From Alistipes sp. (GTDB lineage: Bacteria > Bacteroidota > Bacteroidia > Bacteroidales > Rikenellaceae), in contig JAFTWZ010000001.1 of the NCBI GenBank assembly GCA_017465055.1, positions 119,046 through 183,045 of the forward strand: 64,000 nucleotides of DNA, written 5' to 3'. The position numbers were made by a program, and so were the translations under genes. Positions 51,575-63,632 of this stretch are shown in pieces. Position 1 is the stretch's first letter, and every line of letters starts with the position of its first letter. The notes below the pieces were generated by a model that did not search any database, was not told where the DNA came from, and was given only the letters and a program-made list of their open reading frames with translations.

Positions 51575-51920
51575 TGAGGTGTTAAAGGGAAGGGTGCAGG
51601 CAGTGCGGGCTAAAGGGAGATTAGAGACAGCAGAGACAGCAGAGACAGCAGAGACAGCAGAGACAACAGAGACAACAAAACAGCAGAAACAGCAGAAACA
51701 GCAGAAACAGCAGAAACAGCAGAGACAGCAGAGACAGCAGAGACAGCAGAGACAGCAGAGACAGCAGAGACAGCAGAGAAATATGATACCCGACTTCGTT
51801 GTTGTCTCTTTCGTCCCTCTCGTCTCTCTCTTTCAACGGCTACGCCACAACCCATCAATCAGCCTGCTCCCTAAACTCTCTAATTTCTCTAAATTCCTTA
51901 AAACTATTTCACGCGCAAGC
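51575..51920. repeat. Composite family C element with GAGACAGCA array, copy 8
   Basis: The left is AAAGGGAGATTAGAGAC, then about 17 units of AGACAGCAG or AGAAACAGC (9 bp, 51627-51779). A middle of ATGATACCCGACTTCGTTG follows, then TCTCTTTCGTCCCTCTCGTC, and a right arm CTCCCTAAACTCTCTAATTT with CTCTAAATTCCTTA. The middle is the reverse complement of that at 17247-17393. Reading frames across it are low-complexity artefacts. Confidence 0.7.
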
Positions 51921-53884: not shown

Positions 53885-55162
53885 ATGGGAGACAACAGAA
53901 CAATAATAAAGGGTGCGACCATAGTAGGTGGTAGCACAGAAGACATTGCAATAGCCAATGGCATCATCGTAGAGCGCGCAAGCGAGATAACACCCGGGGC
54001 TGGCGACACGGTAATAAATGCCGCAGGACTGGTGGCAGCACCAGCATTTGTCGACGTTCACGTGCACCTCAGAGAGCCAGGATTCGGATACAAGGAGCGT
54101 ATAGCGACAGGAACGGCAGCCGCAGCGCGCGGAGGATACTCGACAGTATGTTCTATGCCAAACCTCAACCCAGTGCCCGATACCGTAGAGACGCTCGGCG
54201 TGCAGCTCGACATAATCCGTCGCGATGCCAAGATAGAGGTGCTGCCCTACGCAGCGATAACCATAGGACGCAAGGGCGAGGAGCTAGTAGACATAGCAGC
54301 CTTGCAGGATAAGGTGTGCGCCTTCTCGGACGACGGCAGCGGCGTGCAGCACGACGCAATGATGGAGCGAGCAATGGCCGAGGCAGCCAAGCACGATGCC
54401 CTGATAGCGGCTCACTGCGAGGTGGAGGAGCTTCTGCGTGGCGGATATATACACGATGGCGAGTATGCGCGTAAGCACGGTCACAAGGGTATATGCTCGG
54501 AGAGCGAGTGGGAGCAGGTAAGGCGCGATATAGAGATTGCCGAGAAGCTCGGATGCCGCTACCACGTATGTCACATATCGACAAAGGAGACCGTAGAGCT
54601 GGTACGCCAGGCGAAGGCTCGTGGCGCTAAGGTTACCTGCGAGACAGGCCCTCACTACCTGATATTTACGGATATGGACCTTGAGGAGGATGCTCGCTGG
54701 AAGATGAACCCTCCGCTACGCTCGGCAGAGGATCGCGCAGCACTCATAGAGGGAATAAAGGATGGCACCATAGATATGATAGCCACAGACCACGCACCCC
54801 ACACCGTGGAGGAGAAGTCGCGAGGACTGAAGGATAGCGCTATGGGCGTCGTAGGCCTCGAGACGGCGTTTGCGGCGCTAAACACTCATCTTGTGCGCAA
54901 GGGTGTAATCACGCTTGAGAGACTCGTGGAGCTGATGAGCATAAACCCTCGCCGCGTATTCCGCATAGAGGGCGGCATCGAGGTAGGCAATCGCGCAGAT
55001 ATAGTGCTACTCGACGTAGAGCGCCAGTGGCGCGTAGATAGCACGAAGTTCTTGTCGATGGGCAAGATATCGATGTTCGACGGTCGCGAGATGGTAGGCG
55101 ACGTAGCTATGACCATACATCGCGGCAACGTAGTGTACGACAACAATACAAAACAATATTAA
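53885..55162 (+). CDS. pyrC: Dihydroorotase
   Basis: A 425-residue zinc amidohydrolase (class I type) closing N-carbamoyl-aspartate to dihydroorotate, third step of UMP synthesis. Metal ligands: FVDVHVHLREPG (HxH near residue 58), His in AAHCEVEEL, His in YHVCHISTKET, and Asp in IDMIATDHAPH. Other class I features: ATGTAAAARGGYSTVCSMPN and NPPLRSAEDRAALIEGI. First gene of the operon; the start codon lies directly after the attenuator U-run. carA follows after 11 bp. Confidence 0.95.
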   Translation: MGDNRTIIKGATIVGGSTEDIAIANGIIVERASEITPGAGDTVINAAGLVAAPAFVDVHVHLREPGFGYKERIATGTAAAARGGYSTVCSMPNLNPVPDTVETLGVQLDIIRRDAKIEVLPYAAITIGRKGEELVDIAALQDKVCAFSDDGSGVQHDAMMERAMAEAAKHDALIAAHCEVEELLRGGYIHDGEYARKHGHKGICSESEWEQVRRDIEIAEKLGCRYHVCHISTKETVELVRQAKARGAKVTCETGPHYLIFTDMDLEEDARWKMNPPLRSAEDRAALIEGIKDGTIDMIATDHAPHTVEEKSRGLKDSAMGVVGLETAFAALNTHLVRKGVITLERLVELMSINPRRVFRIEGGIEVGNRADIVLLDVERQWRVDSTKFLSMGKISMFDGREMVGDVAMTIHRGNVVYDNNTKQY

Positions 55163-55173
55163 ATATAGAGCAA

Positions 55174-56262
55174 ATGAAACCTTTTACCAAGAAACTTGTA
55201 CTTGAGAATGGCAAGGAGTTTCCCGGCTATGGATTCGGCGCAAACCGCAATGCGGTGTGCGAGATAGTCTTCAACACCTCGATGGTGGGATATCAGGAGA
55301 TTGTCTCGGACCCTACATACACCGACCAGATTGTGGTGATGACATACCCACTGATGGGTAACTACGGATTCGCCGACGAAGACTACGAGAGTAAGTTCCC
55401 CTCGATGGGCGGTATGGTAGTGCGCGAGTGCTGCGATGCACCAAGCAACTTCCGCTATACCAAGACCCTAAACGAGGCGTTCGAGGAGCTCGACGTGCCA
55501 GGCATCAGCGGCGTAGATACGCGTATGATAACACGCATAATACGCAACGAGGGCACACAGAAGGCTGCAATAGTAGACTACGCAATGTCGCACGACGAGG
55601 CTATGGAGCTGATACGCACAACGGAGCTTAAGTGTAACCTCTTAGAGAAGGTGAGCTGCAAGAAGCGTTGGTTCTCGCGCACGCCAAACCACAAGTGGGA
55701 CGTAGTGGCCATAGACTGCGGTATCAAGTACAGCTTCATACGTCAGCTCAACGCGAAGGGTTGCAACGTGACAATAGTGCCCTACAACTCTACGGCCGAG
55801 GAGATTATGGCCTTCAACCCCGACGGTATATTCGTATCGAACGGTCCAGGTAACCCCGCCGACTCGGAGGTTGTTTGCGAGGCACTCAGAACGCTACGCG
55901 GCAAGCGCCCTATCTTCGGCGTAGACCTCGGACATCAGCTCATAGCCATAAGCTACGGCGCCAAGAACACCAAGATGAAGGTGGGACACCGCGGTGCTAA
56001 CCACCCAGTAAGATGCCTCGAGAACGGCAAGCTCGAGATAGTGGCACAGAACCACGGCTACACCATCGATGAAGCCTCGCTTGCGAGCACTCCTCTCGTG
56101 GTGACACACCGCAACCTGCTCGACGACACCGTAGCGGGCATAGAGTCGCCAGCCGACAGAGTATTCTCGGTGCAGTATCAGCCCGACTGCTCGCCCGAGG
56201 CAAGCAACACATATCTTTTCGATAAGTTCATTAAACTAATGGAGGACGAGAAAAATGCCTAA
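55174..56262 (+). CDS. carA: Carbamoyl phosphate synthetase small subunit, glutaminase triad lost
   Basis: A 362-residue subunit. The N-terminal CarA domain ([40 protein letters not shown]) and the class I amidotransferase fold ([37 protein letters not shown]) are intact. The catalytic residues are not. The nucleophile Cys of GICLGHQ is Asp251 ([11 protein letters not shown]), and the HPE pair is Gln336-Pro-Asp338 ([13 protein letters not shown]). E. coli equivalents are Cys269, His353 and Glu355. The frame is intact with strong conservation elsewhere, so the subunit probably serves structure or ammonia channelling, not glutamine hydrolysis. It overlaps carB by 8 bp. Confidence 0.93.
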
Positions 56263-59200
56263 GAGAACAGATATCAAGAAAGTAATGGTCATCGGCTCAG
56301 GACCTATCGTCATAGGCCAGGCCGCAGAGTTCGACTACGCAGGTACGCAGGCCTGCTTGGCACTCAAGGAGGAGGGCTATCAGGTAATCCTGGTGAACTC
56401 TAACCCAGCAACCATAATGACCGACACACATATCGCCGATAAGGTATATATGGAGCCACTGACGCTCGAGTATGTTGCCAAGATTATCCGCTATGAGCGC
56501 CCCGATGCCATAGTTCCTGGTCTCGGAGGACAGACAGGCCTCAACCTCGCGGTGCAGCTCGCCAAGAAGGGTATTCTCGAGGAGTGTGGCGTAGAGATTC
56601 TCGGAACGTCGTTTACCTCGATCGAGGAAGCCGAGGATAGAGAGCTCTTCAAGGAGCTGTGCTTGCGCATTGGCGAGCCAGTGATTCCCTCGCGCATCAC
56701 AAACTCTATAGAGGAGGGTGTCGAGGCAGCGAAGGAGATTGGCTATCCCGTAGTATTACGTCCTGCCTTCACGCTCGGAGGTACGGGTGGTGGCTTTGCC
56801 GACAACGAGGAGGAGCTGCGCGACACTATGCGCAACGCCTTAGCGCTATCGCCTATCCACCAGGTGCTCGTAGAGAAGAGTATCAAGGGATACAAGGAGA
56901 TAGAGTTCGAGGTTATGCGCGACAAGAACGACACGGCCATAGCCATCTGCTCGATGGAGAATGTCGACCCTGTGGGTATTCACACCGGAGACTCTATCGT
57001 GGTAGCTCCAAGCCAGACGTTGGCAGCCAAAGAGTACAATATGCTACGCCAGAGCGCGCTGAAGCTCATCCGCGCACTCAAGATTGAGGGTGGATGCAAC
57101 GTACAGTTTGCCCTCGACCCACTATCGTTCAAGTACTTCATCATCGAGGTTAACCCACGCGTAAGCCGCTCGTCGGCGCTGGCATCAAAGGCCAGTGGCT
57201 ACCCTATTGCTCGTGTAACGGCTAAGGTGGCCATAGGTATGCACCTCGACGAGATACGCATAGCAAATACGCCTGCGAGCTTCGAGCCTACGCTCGACTA
57301 CATAGTAACAAAGGTTGCACGCTTCCCATTCGACAAGTTCAGCGACGCCTCGAACGAGCTGGGCACACAGATGAAGGCTACGGGCGAGGTTATGTCCGTA
57401 GGTCGTACATTCGAGGAGGGTTTGTTGAAGGCCGTACGCTCACTCGAGACTGGCGTGTGTCACATATATCACAAGAAGTTCGACACTATGTCCGTTGAGG
57501 GCATATTGGCATATATCCGCAAGGGTACTGACGACCGCATCTACGCCATCGCCGAGCTTATACGCCGCGGTGTAGATCTGCTACACGTCTACGACAACAC
57601 AAAGATAGACCTCTTCTTCCTCGAGAAGCTCAAGAATATCGTCGAGATGGAGAACGTGGTGAAGGCCAACGTGCGCGACACAGAGGTGCTGCGCGAGGCT
57701 AAGCGTATGGGCTTTAGCGATAAGTATATCGGCAAGCTATGGTCTATGACCGAGAGCGAAGTATTCCTCCTGCGCAAGGCCAACGCCATCTTCCCAGTAT
57801 ACAAGATGATTGACACGTGTGCTGCGGAGTTCGACTCTAAGGTACCATACCTCTACTCTACCTACGAGCAGGAGAACGAGTCGATAGTTTCCGACCGTAA
57901 GAAGATTATAGTCCTCGGCTCAGGCCCTATACGTATCGGCCAGGGCGTAGAGTTCGACTACTCTACCGTACACGCCATCTGGGCTATCCGCGAGGCAGGC
58001 TACGAGGCTATCATCATCAACAATAACCCCGAGACCGTATCGACAGACTACACCACAAGCGACAAGCTATACTTCGAGCCTCTGACGGTCGAGGATGTGA
58101 TGAACGTCATAGAGCTTGAGAGGCCTACAGGCGTAGTGGTATCGCTCGGAGGACAGACGGCCATCAACCTTGCCAAGCCACTTGCCGACTTGGGCGTAAC
58201 GATTATCGGTACGGGCATCGAGGCAATCAACAATGCCGAGGATAGAAAGTGCTTCGAGGCCATTATGCGCCGCGCTGGCATTCCACAGCCCGAGGCTGAG
58301 GCTATAACCGACATCGAGCGCGGTGTTGTCGCTGCTGAGCGCATCGGCTACCCCGTATTGGTACGTCCAAGCTATGTGCTCGGTGGTCGAGCAATGCAGA
58401 TTGTATCGAACGAGGAGGCTCTGCGCCACTACCTCAAGAACGCTGTGGAGATAAACGAGGATCAGCCCGTACTTGTCGACAAGTATATTATGGGTAAGGA
58501 GCTTGAGGTCGACGCCATATGCGACGGCACGGATGTATTCATCCCCGGCATTATGGAGCACGTCGAGCGTACGGGTATCCACTCGGGCGACTCTATAAGC
58601 GTATACCCTACGTTCAGCGTAAGCCAGAAGGTTAAGGATACGATTATCGACTACACCATACGCCTCGGTAAGGAGATTGGCATCTTAGGCCTCTACAACA
58701 TACAGTTTATCGCCGACAATCGCGATATGGTCTACGTCATCGAGGTAAACCCACGCTCGTCGCGTACCGTACCATTCCTCTCGAAGGCTACGGGTGTGCC
58801 AATGGCCAAGATAGCCACCAACGTGATGCTCGGACACTCGCTCAAGGAGCAGGGCATTACGGTTGTAGTCCCCGATGAGAAGAAGCGTTGGTATGTTAAG
58901 ACCCCAGCCTTCTCGTTTGCCAAGATTCGTGGCGTAGACTCATACCTATCGCCCGAGATGAAGTCTACGGGTGAGGCTATAGGCTACGACTCGTCGCTAC
59001 GCCGCGCACTCTACAAGTCGCTCCAGTCGTCGGGTATGACCATCGCCAACTACGGCACTATCTTCGTATCGATTGCCGACGTCGACAAGCCACGCGCACT
59101 GCCACTAATACGCCGTTTCTACGAGCTCGGCTTCAACATCGAGGCTACGAGCGGAACGACCAAGTTCTTGCGCGAGAATGGCATACGCACACGCTGTCTG

Positions 59201-59437
59201 AAGAAGCTCAGCGAGGGCTCGACCGAGATATTCGACTCGATACGCAAGGGCCACGTCAACTACGTTATCAACACCATAGATATCAACCAGCACAGCTCAC
59301 GCCTCGATGGCTACGACATTCGTCGCTGCGCCGTAGAGAACAACGTGACCATCTTCACAGCTCTCGAGACGGTAAGCGTACTGCTCGACGTGCTCGAGGA
59401 GATAACGCTGGGTGTATCTACAATCGACGCTGAATAA
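56255..59437 (+). CDS. carB: Carbamoyl phosphate synthetase large subunit
   Basis: A 1060-residue subunit with two homologous ATP-grasp synthetase halves: [20 protein letters not shown] at the N-terminus and [20 protein letters not shown] near residue 550. The first makes carboxyphosphate and carbamate; the second phosphorylates carbamate. ATP-grasp signatures include [20 protein letters not shown] and [22 protein letters not shown]-terminal MGS-like regulatory domain (about 925-1050) remains. Its start overlaps the end of carA. Because CarA lacks its triad, ammonia from solution is the likely nitrogen source. Confidence 0.96.
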
Positions 59438-60177
59438 TGTATAAGAAGAACATCTATAAGATTGCAAGTAACGAACCTCTGACACCTGCGGTATACCGTA
59501 TGGTGTTGGAGGGCGATACTCAGTACATCACTCGCTCGGGACAGTTTATCAACATCGAGCTCGAAGGTAAGTTCCTGCGCCGTCCCATCTCGGTGGCAGA
59601 CTACGACGCAAGGAGCATCACTATTATATATAAGGTAGTGGGTAGCGGTACCGAGCAGATGAAGGGACTAAAGGTTGGCGAGGAGCTTGACATACTCACG
59701 GGCTTGGGTAACGGCTTCGACACCGACAACGCATCGACAAAGCCACTCTTAGTAGGTGGTGGCGTGGGCGTGCCTCCGATGTACAACCTCTGCAAGAGAC
59801 TCATCGCCGAGGGTAAGCAGCCGAGGGTAATCATAGGCTTTAACACCGCAAGCGAGGTGTTCTACCTCGAAGAGTTCAGGGCTTTAGGCGTGGAGGTATA
59901 CTGCGCTACGGCCGATGGCACGATGGGCGATAAGGGCTTCGTTACGGATGTCATACGCCAGCGAGCAGTGGAGTTTGACTATCTATATACGTGTGGTCCA
60001 CTGCCTATGCTCAAGGCACTCTACGACGCCACGGAGGTTGATGGCCAGTACAGCTTCGAGGAGCGTATGGGCTGCGGCTTTGGCGCTTGTATGGGTTGCA
60101 CGTGCAAGACGAAGTACGGAAACAAGCGAATTTGTAAGGATGGTCCTATACTTAAACGTGAGGAGATAATATGGTAA
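59437..60177 (+). CDS. pyrK: PyrK, electron-transfer subunit of dihydroorotate dehydrogenase B
   Basis: A 246-residue flavo-iron-sulfur protein joining PyrD to NAD. The N-terminal FAD domain includes GQFINIELEGKFLRRPISVA (RPxS flavin motif). The NAD domain follows (LLVGGGVGVPPMYNLCKRLI). A C-terminal [2Fe-2S] site lies in CGFGACMGCTCKTK with a later Cys in RICKDGP. It overlaps carB by one base and pyrD by seven, showing translational coupling. Confidence 0.94.
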   Translation: MYKKNIYKIASNEPLTPAVYRMVLEGDTQYITRSGQFINIELEGKFLRRPISVADYDARSITIIYKVVGSGTEQMKGLKVGEELDILTGLGNGFDTDNASTKPLLVGGGVGVPPMYNLCKRLIAEGKQPRVIIGFNTASEVFYLEEFRALGVEVYCATADGTMGDKGFVTDVIRQRAVEFDYLYTCGPLPMLKALYDATEVDGQYSFEERMGCGFGACMGCTCKTKYGNKRICKDGPILKREEIIW

Positions 60178-61091
60178 AGCACTACGACACATCGGTTGAG
60201 CTCTACGGCGTCAAGCTCGACAACCCAGTAATTCCAGCCTCGGGAACATTTGGCTTTGGCCGCGAGTTTGCCGAGTACTACGACCTCGACTGCCTCGGTG
60301 CTATATCGTTCAAGGGTACTACGCGCGAGGCACGCTTCGGCAACCCAACGCCACGCATCGCCGAGTGCAGCGCAGGACTTATCAACTCTGTAGGCCTGCA
60401 AAACCCAGGCATCGACCAGGTGATAGCCGACGAGCTACCCCACCTGCGCGAGATATTCCACAAGCCTATAATAGCCAACATCAGTGGATTCTCGCTTGAG
60501 GAGTATGAGGAGTGTTGCGCGAAGATAGACAAGGAGGAGCAGGTTGCCATCATCGAGGTTAACGTCTCGTGTCCTAATGTACACAACGGAGGTATGAGCT
60601 TCGGCACACAGCCCGAGTCGGCAGCCGAGGTGACACGCCGCGTAAAGGCCGTAACCACAAAGCCCGTATTTATCAAGCTAAGTCCCAACGTTACGGACAT
60701 AGTATCTATAGCACGCGCGTGCGAGGAGGCTGGCGCCGATGGTATCTGCCTTATCAACACGCTACTGGGTATGCGCATCGACACTATGCGTCGCAGACCC
60801 GTTATAGCCAACAAGATGGGTGGTTTTTCGGGCGATGCTATCTTCCCCATAGCGGTGCGTATGGTCTACCAGGTGGCCAATGCGTGCAACATCCCAGTTA
60901 TGGGCTGCGGAGGCGTAAGCTCAGCTTCGGACGTCATAGAGATGATGATGGCAGGAGCTACAGCAGTGCAGGTAGGTGCTGCAAATCTACGCAATCCCTA
61001 CGCCTCGAAGGAGATTATCGAGGCACTTCCAAAGGAGATGGAGCGTTTAGGCATAGAGCGCCTCAGCGACATCATTGGCATAGTTAAGTAG
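60171..61091 (+). CDS. pyrD: Dihydroorotate dehydrogenase B catalytic subunit
   Basis: A 306-residue FMN enzyme oxidising dihydroorotate to orotate. Visible: NPVIPASGTFGFGREFAEYY, ISFKGTTREARFGNPTPRIA, the catalytic Cys in EVNVSCPNVHNGG, FIKLSPNVTDIV and the FMN phosphate site MGCGGVSSASDVIEMMMAGA. The Cys base and the adjoining pyrK mark it as class 1B, NAD-linked, suited to anaerobic life. Coupled to pyrK by overlap. Confidence 0.95.
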   Translation: MVKHYDTSVELYGVKLDNPVIPASGTFGFGREFAEYYDLDCLGAISFKGTTREARFGNPTPRIAECSAGLINSVGLQNPGIDQVIADELPHLREIFHKPIIANISGFSLEEYEECCAKIDKEEQVAIIEVNVSCPNVHNGGMSFGTQPESAAEVTRRVKAVTTKPVFIKLSPNVTDIVSIARACEEAGADGICLINTLLGMRIDTMRRRPVIANKMGGFSGDAIFPIAVRMVYQVANACNIPVMGCGGVSSASDVIEMMMAGATAVQVGAANLRNPYASKEIIEALPKEMERLGIERLSDIIGIVK

Positions 61092-61118: not shown

Positions 61119-61820
61119 ATGAGTAAGCGAGATGTAATCATTGCTTGCGACTTTAGCAGTAAGGAGCAGACACTGAACTTTTTGGATAAGTTCACAGGTC
61201 GTAAGCCATTTGTCAAGATAGGTATGGAGCTTTTCTATGCCGAGGGCCCAGAGATTGTGCGCACAATCAAGGCGCGTGGTCACCGCATATTCCTCGACCT
61301 TAAGCTCCACGATATTCCAAATACGGTAAAGAAGGCTATGTCGGTGTTGCGTAACCTCGACGTCGATATGACCAACGTACACGCAGCAGGTACGGTAGAT
61401 ATGATGAAGGCTGCAATCGAGGGTCTCACGCGCGAGGATGGCACACGCCCACTACTTATCGCCGTGACGCAGCTGACCTCGACATCGGAGGAGCGTATGC
61501 AGAAGGAGTTGCTCATAGGCGCCTCGATAAACGACACCATCGTGAAGTATGCCGAGAATGCTAAGGCTGCAGGCCTCGATGGTGTGGTATGCTCACCTCT
61601 CGAGGCTCGTATGGTCAAGGATGCGTGCGGCGAGGAGTTTATGACCGTAACACCAGGTGTGCGCTTTGCCGATGGCGACGTGGGCGACCAGGTGCGCGTG
61701 ACAACACCCGAGAGAGCTAAGGAGATAGGCTCGGACTTCATCGTCGTAGGACGTCCTATCACCGCTGCTGATGACCCCGTAGCCGCTTACGAGCGCTGCC
61801 TACGAGAGTTTGCCGAGTAA
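61119..61820 (+). CDS. pyrF: Orotidine 5'-phosphate decarboxylase
   Basis: A 233-residue TIM-barrel enzyme giving UMP from OMP, the last step. Motifs: [40 protein letters not shown], the catalytic Lys-Asp set [16 protein letters not shown], and the phosphate-binding [17 protein letters not shown]. It lies 27 bp after pyrD and about 90 bp before pyrE. Length is usual for the group-I type. Confidence 0.95.
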
Positions 61821-61909
61821 CACAACGCCGCAAGGTGGTAATAAGAGGCTCGATTAGAGCCGTAACAAGAGCACAAATAGAGAGTATTAACACAAAACAC
61901 GAAGATATT

Positions 61910-62539
61910 ATGGAGAAGAAGATAGCAAAAGATCTATTGTCAATAGGCGCAGTATTCCTACGTCCCGAGCAGCCATTTACCTGGGCAAGTGGCATCAAGA
62001 GCCCTATCTATTGCGACAACCGCCTCACGCTGACCGCTCCCGAGGTGCGTAACCACGTCGAGGAGGGTCTTGCCGAGCTTATTCGTAAGCACTACCCCGA
62101 GGTAGAGGTGCTTATGGGCACGTCTACAGCAGGTATCGCCCACGCTGCAATCACAGCAACAATCCTTAACCTGCCTATGGGCTACGTACGCTCAGGCTCT
62201 AAGGATCACGGCCGTGGCAACCAGATAGAGGGTAAGCTCGAGAAGGGGCAGAAGGTTGTCGTTGTCGAGGACCTCATCTCTACGGCAGGTAGCTGCATCG
62301 AGGTAGTCGAGGCTCTGCGCGCTGCAGGTGCCGATGTTCTCGGTATCGTGAGCATCTTCACCTACGGTATGCAGAAGGGCTTGGATCGTCTGGCTGCTGC
62401 CGAGGCTAAGAACTACTCGCTCTCGAACCTCGACGCACTGGTAGAGGTGGCTGCCGACGAGGGATATATCAAGCCCGAGGATAAGGAGCGCATCCTTAAG
62501 TTCCGTAGCAACCCTTCGGACGAGTCGTGGATTAAGTAA
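61910..62539 (+). CDS. pyrE: Orotate phosphoribosyltransferase
   Basis: A 209-residue enzyme joining orotate to PRPP. Family evidence: [65 protein letters not shown] (mobile catalytic loop) and the PRPP motif [20 protein letters not shown]. An in-frame extension of 25 codons has no similarity to the family; the ATG starting [10 protein letters not shown] is chosen. Confidence 0.95.
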
Positions 62540-62564: not shown

Positions 62565-63632
62565 ATGAAGCACTTGATTGACCCAACGGATTTATCGGTA
62601 TCGGAGATTTCGGAGATAATAGCCTTAGCCGAAGATATCATCGCCCACCGCGAGAGATATAGCGAGGCGTGCCGAGGCAAGAAGCTAGCCACGCTCTTCT
62701 ACGAGCCCAGCACGCGCACGCGCCTGAGCTTCACGGCAGCAATGATGGAACTTGGCGGCAACGTCATCGGCTTTGCCGATGCTAAGTCGTCGTCGGTATC
62801 CAAGGGCGAGACTGTGCAGGACACGGTGAGGGTTATCAACTGCTTTGCCGACATCATAGCTATGCGCCACAAGGTCGAGGGTGCTCCGCTGGCAGCTACA
62901 GAGGTATCGCGCACGCCTATCATCAACGCTGGCGATGGCTCGCACAGCCACCCTACGCAGACGATGACCGACCTATTGACCATCAAGCGCGAGCTGGGCA
63001 CGCTCAACAACCTCACCATAGGACTTGTTGGCGACCTTAAGTATGGCCGCACGGTGCACTCACTTATTAAGGCTATGACGCGCTACGAGGGTACTAAGTT
63101 TGTGCTTATAGCGCCTCCAGAGTTGGCCCTACCAGACTATATCAAGCACGACGTCTGCGACCGCTACGGCGTGGAGTACCGCGAGTCATCAGATATAGAG
63201 AGCGTAATCGGCGACGTCGATATCCTATATATGACTCGTGTGCAGCAGGAGCGTTTCACCGACCTCGAGGAGTATGAGAGGGTCAAGGATTGCTTCGTAT
63301 TAGACGCTGCAAAGATGCGCGGCGCTAAGGAGCATATGGCCGTTCTACACCCACTACCTCGTGTCAACGAGATAGCCATAGATGTCGATGCCGACCCACG
63401 CGCGGCATACTTCCGCCAGGTGGAGAATGGTAAGTTTGTGCGTATGGCCCTAATCCTCAAGCTACTTGAGTGGCAGGAGGATGCGGAGCGTAAGTTTGAC
63501 CACGGAGGCAAGGATTTGGGGTGCAAGTGTCCCAATCCGCTCTGTATCTCGAATCTCGAGCCTGTACGCCCACGCTTCGATAAGGCCGACGATGTGGTAA
63601 GGTGCGTGTACTGCGAGTCTAAGGCAGAGTAG
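62565..63632 (+). CDS. pyrB: Aspartate carbamoyltransferase with C-terminal zinc ribbon
   Basis: A 355-residue protein. Residues 1-308 are a standard catalytic chain: carbamoyl phosphate site FYEPSTRTRLSFTAAMMELG, loop SSSVSKGETVQDTVRV, DGSHSHPTQTMTDLL, and HPLPRVNEIAIDVDADPRAA. The last 40 residues add Cys322-x4-Cys327 and Cys347-x2-Cys350 (CPNPLCISNLEPV, VVRCVYCE), closely resembling the zinc domain of the regulatory chain PyrI. The nucleotide-binding allosteric domain of PyrI is absent. In E. coli this zinc domain contacts the catalytic trimer. Last gene of the operon. Confidence 0.95.
   Translation: MKHLIDPTDLSVSEISEIIALAEDIIAHRERYSEACRGKKLATLFYEPSTRTRLSFTAAMMELGGNVIGFADAKSSSVSKGETVQDTVRVINCFADIIAMRHKVEGAPLAATEVSRTPIINAGDGSHSHPTQTMTDLLTIKRELGTLNNLTIGLVGDLKYGRTVHSLIKAMTRYEGTKFVLIAPPELALPDYIKHDVCDRYGVEYRESSDIESVIGDVDILYMTRVQQERFTDLEEYERVKDCFVLDAAKMRGAKEHMAVLHPLPRVNEIAIDVDADPRAAYFRQVENGKFVRMALILKLLEWQEDAERKFDHGGKDLGCKCPNPLCISNLEPVRPRFDKADDVVRCVYCESKAE

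Follow-up and report, generated by a model that had tools for sequence, protein, structure and literature searches.

The small subunit of carbamoyl phosphate synthetase (CarA) encoded in the 64,000-nucleotide stretch analysed here (the window) has all three residues of its glutaminase triad replaced, and this state is common to a whole clade of gut bacteria. Very probably, CarA of this kind does not hydrolyse glutamine and serves as a non-catalytic partner of CarB, which would itself make carbamoyl phosphate from free ammonia. The replacement is best read as part of a wider shift from glutamine to ammonia, which in related lineages appears to reach other nucleotide amidotransferases.

The carA gene is an open frame of 362 amino acids, whose product scores 410.8 bits against the CarA family profile TIGR01368 (cut-off 307.35) and over which PF00988 and PF00117 span almost their full profile length, the two-domain arrangement of the CPS II CarA family. 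When aligned with E. coli CarA (1c30_B and 1t36_B) and, in a multiple alignment, with its relatives, Cys269 falls on Asp251, His353 on Gln336 and Glu355 on Asp338, which bears out the replacements named in the original prediction. The Cys-His-Glu triad of glutamine-dependent CPS II is thus absent, and the protein has a glutaminase-like domain without catalytic Cys of the kind found in CPS I. The motifs NGPGNP, LGHQ and GHRGANHP are all present, in agreement with the claim that the surrounding fold motifs are intact. The source genome, 2.13 Mb in size and 84% complete, yields a single CarA match and no second one.

The gene lies in an operon with the order pyrC-carA-carB-pyrK-pyrD-pyrF-pyrE-pyrB (Table 1), and the proposed full UMP operon with an adjoining intact CarB was found as described. 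carA and carB are separate ORFs, not the single fused chain of CPS I, and CarB, with 1478.9 bits against TIGR01369, has two intact synthetase halves. All 16 residues checked, drawn from what we take to be the catalytic and tunnel residues of E. coli CarB and including the tunnel gate, are kept. Tunnel-gate residues of human CPS are given in PMC4655335. The gate residues of CarB are identical in the clades that lost the CarA Cys, so no clear adaptation of CarB is seen; 53 CarB columns altered in at least two loss groups were listed without comparison to chance and are not used as evidence. Both in the window (62565-63632) and at L428 14594-15676, the PyrB chain includes a PyrI_C zinc domain at its C-terminus, and no PyrI domain beyond PyrI_C was matched on the PyrB protein. 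Elsewhere in the window, a large ORF that has DUF6562 and weakly matches a pectate-lyase-like adhesin is followed directly downstream by a 9-base tandem repeat (51623-51779, 17.6 copies).

Table 1. Genes of the UMP operon in the window and codons of interest within carA
Feature	Position	Strand	Basis
pyrC, dihydroorotase, first UMP operon gene	53885..55162	+	ORF list, profile
carA, carbamoyl phosphate synthase small subunit, triad replaced	55174..56262	+	ORF, profiles, alignment
Thr48 codon (E. coli Ser47)	55315..55317	+	placed from translation
Asp251 codon (E. coli Cys269, nucleophile)	55924..55926	+	placed from translation; alignment
Gln336 codon (E. coli His353)	56179..56181	+	placed from translation; alignment
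Asp338 codon (E. coli Glu355)	56185..56187	+	placed from translation; alignment
carB, intact large subunit	56255..59437	+	profiles, residue check
pyrK, electron-transfer subunit of dihydroorotate dehydrogenase	59437..60177	+	
pyrD, dihydroorotate dehydrogenase	60171..61091	+	
pyrF, OMP decarboxylase	61119..61820	+	
pyrE, orotate phosphoribosyltransferase	61835..62539	+	phosphoribosyltransferase domain; name from operon place
pyrB, aspartate carbamoyltransferase fused to PyrI_C zinc domain; carbamoyl phosphate user	62565..63632	+	

The genome search covered the window's genus (g1), which we infer from its named relatives to be Alistipes, and a neighbour genus (g20). The named relatives are mostly 'Alistipes sp.' or 'Rikenellaceae bacterium' assemblies, many of them from ruminant cecum, colon or rectum; nearly all genomes are drafts, and the named ones are mostly MAGs. 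A CarA match at E <= 1e-20 is present in 161 of 180 g1 genomes, and CarA genes were read from 156 of these (G220, G228, G242, G245 and G253 were left out); with six genes from g20, this gives 162 genes, of which 107 lack the Cys and 55 have Cys-His-Glu. Six residues replace the Cys (Asp, Ser, Gly, Ala, Asn or Glu), and in some Cys-less proteins the His position holds Gln, Asn, Tyr, Asp or Glu and the Glu position Asp, Ala, Thr, Ser or Asn. Several loss clades retain His and Glu, for example as Ser-His-Glu, in which the Ser is presumably inactive.

The clade of the window comprises 36 rows, its members being 79-93% identical to the window, and carries Asp (32) or Gly (4) at the Cys position, with His absent in 35 and Glu in all 36; the window's own residues recur as Asp251 in 32, Gln336 in 35 and Asp338 in 33 rows. 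The three losses originally described therefore stand as residue states but not as a peculiarity of one genome, and the question of whether the trait is lineage-wide can be answered with yes, the Cys being absent from every row of the clade and lost in other lineages as well. Since Gly codons (GGT/GGC) occur alongside Asp codons (GAC/GAT) within this one clade, a substitution path from Cys via Gly to Asp is suggested. The sister of the clade, three species with 70-72% identity to the window, has kept Cys-His-Glu. Beyond the triad, we take Ser47, Asn311, His312 and Gln273 of E. coli CarA to be glutamine-site residues: the Ser47 position is Thr in 36/36 rows of the window clade and Ser in 55/55 Cys-keepers, and another clade, of 26 rows, has lost Asn311 throughout, His312 in 24 rows or more and Gln273 in 13. 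Ruminant hindgut titles accompany 60 of 73 named Cys-less loci versus 0 of 6 named Cys-keepers, a tally that is biased because it comes from the top 80 matches to the window, with one partial row left out.

On a tree built from CarA, with the triad columns removed, and CarB, the states Cys, non-Cys and deleted require at least seven changes, namely six between Cys and non-Cys and one deletion. The minimum rises to eight events (seven losses and one deletion) if regain is forbidden and to 16 changes if the letter at the Cys position is scored, a deletion counting as a letter; a 57-row tree with two states (deleted taken as non-Cys) also needs seven. Constraining all 18 non-Cys rows of the 34-row set to one clade was rejected (p-AU 7e-7), as was joining the three largest loss clades (p-AU 0.007), in tests whose groups were picked after the trees had been seen; a single ancestral loss common to all is ruled out by these tests under the model used. 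Ser is encoded by TCN in one loss clade and by AGY in another. On these trees, loss of the Cys is reconstructed in several lineages, within the genus as well as in its neighbour.

Both carA and carB are under purifying selection. Omega values (simple pairwise Nei-Gojobori estimates, given as medians over non-independent pairs) are 0.085-0.147 for the glutaminase domain in the four large loss clades versus 0.18 in Cys-keepers, and 0.054-0.093 versus 0.148 for the N-domain of CarA. For CarB, they are 0.033-0.051 in five loss clades, 0.035 in a lineage without carA and 0.116 in keepers; many of the CarB rows are partial. Relative to CarB, the glutaminase domain has diverged least in keepers (ratio 2.1), more in the g20 clade (3.0) and most in the four large loss clades (4.5-6.5). 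Because omega is low and this ratio is raised, the glutaminase part of CarA is, by these measures, relaxed but not dead, and CarA as a pseudogene is ruled out by the low omega. Purifying selection on carA could also mean that the protein was repurposed, with Asp251, Gln336 and Asp338 forming a new ligand site through which CarA acts as a sensor or regulator controlling CarB. The three residues are conserved across most of the 36 rows of the window clade (32, 35 and 33, respectively), which fits this idea but is weak evidence because the clade is 79-93% identical to the window, and other loss clades have other residues at the triad positions, so that we regard a new ligand site as unlikely.

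Nineteen g1 genomes have no CarA match. Four of them (G224, G247, G249 and G031) encode a full window-type CarB that is 77-78% identical, and each of the four has carB, pyrK and pyrD immediately after pyrC, without carA; the pyrC-carB gap measures 72 bases in G224 and 96 bases in G031, and the G224 operon continues to pyrF, pyrE and pyrB. These four form one lineage, whose sister rows carry Cys-His-Glu. Another four (G018, G206, G195 and G198) have only a CarB of 41% identity, beside which no carA was recognised in the stretches read; in five (G257, G260, G076, G265 and G081) the CarB match is incomplete, lying for several at the end of a contig, and hence uninformative, and six have no CarB match either. 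G042 (93% complete) has PyrG and no CarA, CarB or GuaA match, and is possibly a nucleotide scavenger. The absence of carA from one lineage, the g1 genomes with no PyrG or with neither CarA nor CarB, and the faster divergence of the whole of CarA relative to CarB in loss clades might all be taken as signs of a decaying operon, in which pyrimidines are salvaged and CarA is a pseudogene in progress. This reading is improbable, given that omega in loss clades (0.054-0.147 for CarA and 0.033-0.051 for CarB) is not above that of Cys-keepers, that frames are mostly open and the CarB active site is kept, and that the pyr genes are complete in the window as well as in the carA-free G224.

A second, canonical CarA was looked for as a possible source of glutaminase activity. 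In keeping with the result for the source genome, no second CarA match (E <= 1e-20) was found in 95 of the 101 Cys-less g1 genomes read, nor in 10 of the 11 with completeness of 95% or more and contamination of 5% or less. Two CarA matches occur in seven g1 genomes, the Cys-less G021, G073, G049, G201, G217 and G071 and the Cys-keeper G259. In G021, the second CarA is fragmentary, of the same kind as the first and with Asp (L107); in G073, a genome with 8% contamination, it belongs to a different type and has Gly in place of the Cys. In G049, G201, G217 and G071, the second CarA has Cys-His-Glu and 37-38% identity. The canonical carA of G201 and its carB adjoin genes for an arginine repressor, argininosuccinate synthase and argC- and argD-like proteins, and glutamine may therefore still feed arginine synthesis there.

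The ammonia-based reading accounts for these observations as follows. The window CarA would be inactive on glutamine, and CarB would combine bicarbonate, ATP and free ammonia, its probable nitrogen donor in vivo, into carbamoyl phosphate for the pyrimidine operon. In the ruminant hindgut, ammonia may have eased the requirement for a glutaminase; in the simplest account, selection on this activity lapsed repeatedly because ammonia meets the nitrogen need of CarB directly. The Cys-less CarA might stabilise CarB or shape how ammonia reaches it, much as the inactive domain may in vertebrate CPS I, and such a structural or access role would explain its retention in most lineages, with CarA gone in one. 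The support comes from sequence: triad loss across the clade, repeated loss of the Cys in the genus and its neighbour, carB with an intact active site even where carA is missing, most genomes lacking any other carA, and purifying selection on both genes.

The original prediction is supported for CarA, but overlooked the loss of glutaminase residues in other nucleotide amidotransferases of related lineages. GuaA was found in 27 of 30 genomes searched, 15 times in a short form that lacks the regions of the Cys, His and Glu and 12 times in a full form with all three. Across the genus, where its form was called from the profile score rather than gene by gene (frame lengths are mostly consistent with the calls, apart from a few frames cut short and a short-scoring G212 gene in a 513-codon frame), short GuaA is present in 57 of 92 CarA-losers (Cys-less or deleted) versus 0 of 47 Cys-keepers with GuaA; the full form is found in 35 losers and 47 keepers. 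This tally excludes 27 rows without a GuaA call, six of which are the g20 rows outside the score survey. Of the 35 losers with full GuaA, 31 belong to the window clade, and the other four are those that carry a second, canonical CarA. The association of GuaA form with CarA state has a Fisher p of 7e-15, uncorrected for kinship; in most of 200 draws of six independent pairs, five pairs point the same way, none the opposite way and one shows no difference (median p 0.0625). In the GuaA tree, the 15 short forms are one clade with a long stem and short branches across lineages and both genera, and spread by transfer is therefore suggested. Short Cys-less GuaA genes lie at L307 433-1740 (-) and at L327-L341, in several lineages and two genera, and the one at L307 adjoins a guaB-like gene (assigned by eye).

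PyrG was found in 24 of 30 genomes, with Cys in 21 and Gly in three (G218, G209 and G203), and gave no match in six of 30, including G030 (98% complete). CTP synthase (PF06418) was not found in G024, G001, G030, G056, G224 and G031, which are 85-98% complete. The first Cys is the nucleophile of PurF-class amidotransferases; among 25 genomes, PurF keeps ECGVFG in 15, starts with MSVL and lacks the Cys in five (G030, G031, G056, G218 and G224), is present only as a second type with an MSG start in three (G001, G184 and G209) and has no match in two (G195 and G198). A second PurF-like protein with MSG in place of MCG is encoded at L425 322-1743, and in G201 an MSG-start PurF-like protein coexists with a PurF that keeps ECGVFG. 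Loss in all amidotransferases is ruled out by PurL, in which the Cys motif, GICNG or GVCNG, is kept in 26/26 (only this motif was read), and by GlmS, in which MCG is kept in all six read, four of them in genomes with Cys-less CarA; the profile found few GlmS, and a seventh match (G079) was left unread. Loss limited to CarA is false outside the window clade. Within that clade, CarA is the only one affected among GuaA (full in five relatives), PyrG, PurF, PurL and CarA; in the source genome, PyrG retains its triad and both PurF and PurL retain their Cys, and neither this genome (G000, 84% complete) nor the clade relative G039 (98% complete) gave a GuaA match. As read from these genes, glutaminase erosion extends beyond CarA in related lineages, to GuaA, PurF and PyrG.

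Amidotransferase subunits are shared between enzymes in other systems, and another glutaminase or amidotransferase subunit might feed ammonia to CarB in trans, the complex remaining glutamine-run. We consider such a supply very unlikely: in the source genome (84% complete), the PF00117 profile finds only CarA and PyrG, further amidotransferases are also eroding in other lineages, and the docking partner itself is gone in carA-free genomes. An artefact of assembly or sequencing, conceivable in that the assemblies are drafts, is practically excluded, and sequencing error as such, which would have undone the original prediction, is ruled out, since the same residue states recur in separate assemblies from many animals and projects and are arranged in clades.

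Taken with the ammonia-based reading of CarA, these patterns make it somewhat probable that one group of Alistipes from the gut is moving its nucleotide synthesis off glutamine and onto free ammonia, one enzyme after another and in several lineages at once. The CarA glutaminase would be lost first, as in the window clade, where CarA alone is affected among the enzymes read; the native GuaA would give way to a horizontally spread one whose glutaminase domain is cut down and Cys-less, PurF would lose its N-terminal Cys or be displaced by a Cys-less form, PyrG would lose its Cys or its entire gene, and carA would be deleted in one lineage. GlmS cannot run on ammonia, and enzymes of this kind would for that reason be exempt and keep their glutaminase. 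If this is true, nucleotide synthesis of the group depends on the ammonia of its habitat. The genus offers a natural series from intact CarA through proteins that are Cys-less in many ways to carA-free operons, which opens to test how a channelled amidotransferase reverts to ammonia, what non-catalytic role its small subunit has and whether ruminant-gut ammonia shapes core metabolism. Profile-based names mislead here, because Cys-less CarA and short GuaA exceed the cut-offs of 'glutamine-hydrolyzing' families. Among the titles and abstract openings listed, from part of the literature, we recognised no description of Cys-less bacterial CarA, of carA-free pyr operons or of short GuaA in Alistipes.

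In E. coli, the large subunit reportedly, by the title of a 1987 paper by Rubino, supports in vivo synthesis from NH3. One review regards glutamine as the nitrogen donor in E. coli and, by extension, in every bacterial CPSase, and says that ammonia use by the E. coli enzyme needs very high, likely irrelevant concentrations (PMC6245113); two further papers place bacterial CPS in the glutamine-using type II (PMC6022934) and state that all CPS types except CPS1 use glutamine (PMC4655335), and another review notes that most amidotransferases also accept exogenous ammonia (PMC10526850). The enzyme described here resembles E. coli CarAB (CPS II) in its two subunits, its matches to TIGR01368 and TIGR01369 and its kept CarB active site, and differs in the changed triad, one changed glutamine-site residue and the absence of carA from one lineage. 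Like vertebrate CPS I, it retains an inactive glutaminase-like domain with the Cys replaced (human Ser294; PMC4655335); CPS I, however, is a single chain that needs N-acetylglutamate and serves the urea cycle, whereas here separate subunits are encoded in a pyrimidine operon, several lineages have lost the Cys, and the change extends to further nucleotide amidotransferases. In the fish Alcolapia, CPS III has also shifted convergently to ammonia, but it keeps its triad and has a changed glutamine-binding residue, unlike the window CarA (PMC7657897). Single-domain NAD synthetase is likewise a bacterial amidating enzyme that uses ammonia without a glutaminase, and its forms are described as subject to lineage-specific loss and transfer; there, the ammonia form is held to be likely ancestral (PMC3376133), whereas in the CarA studied here it is glutamine use that would have been lost.
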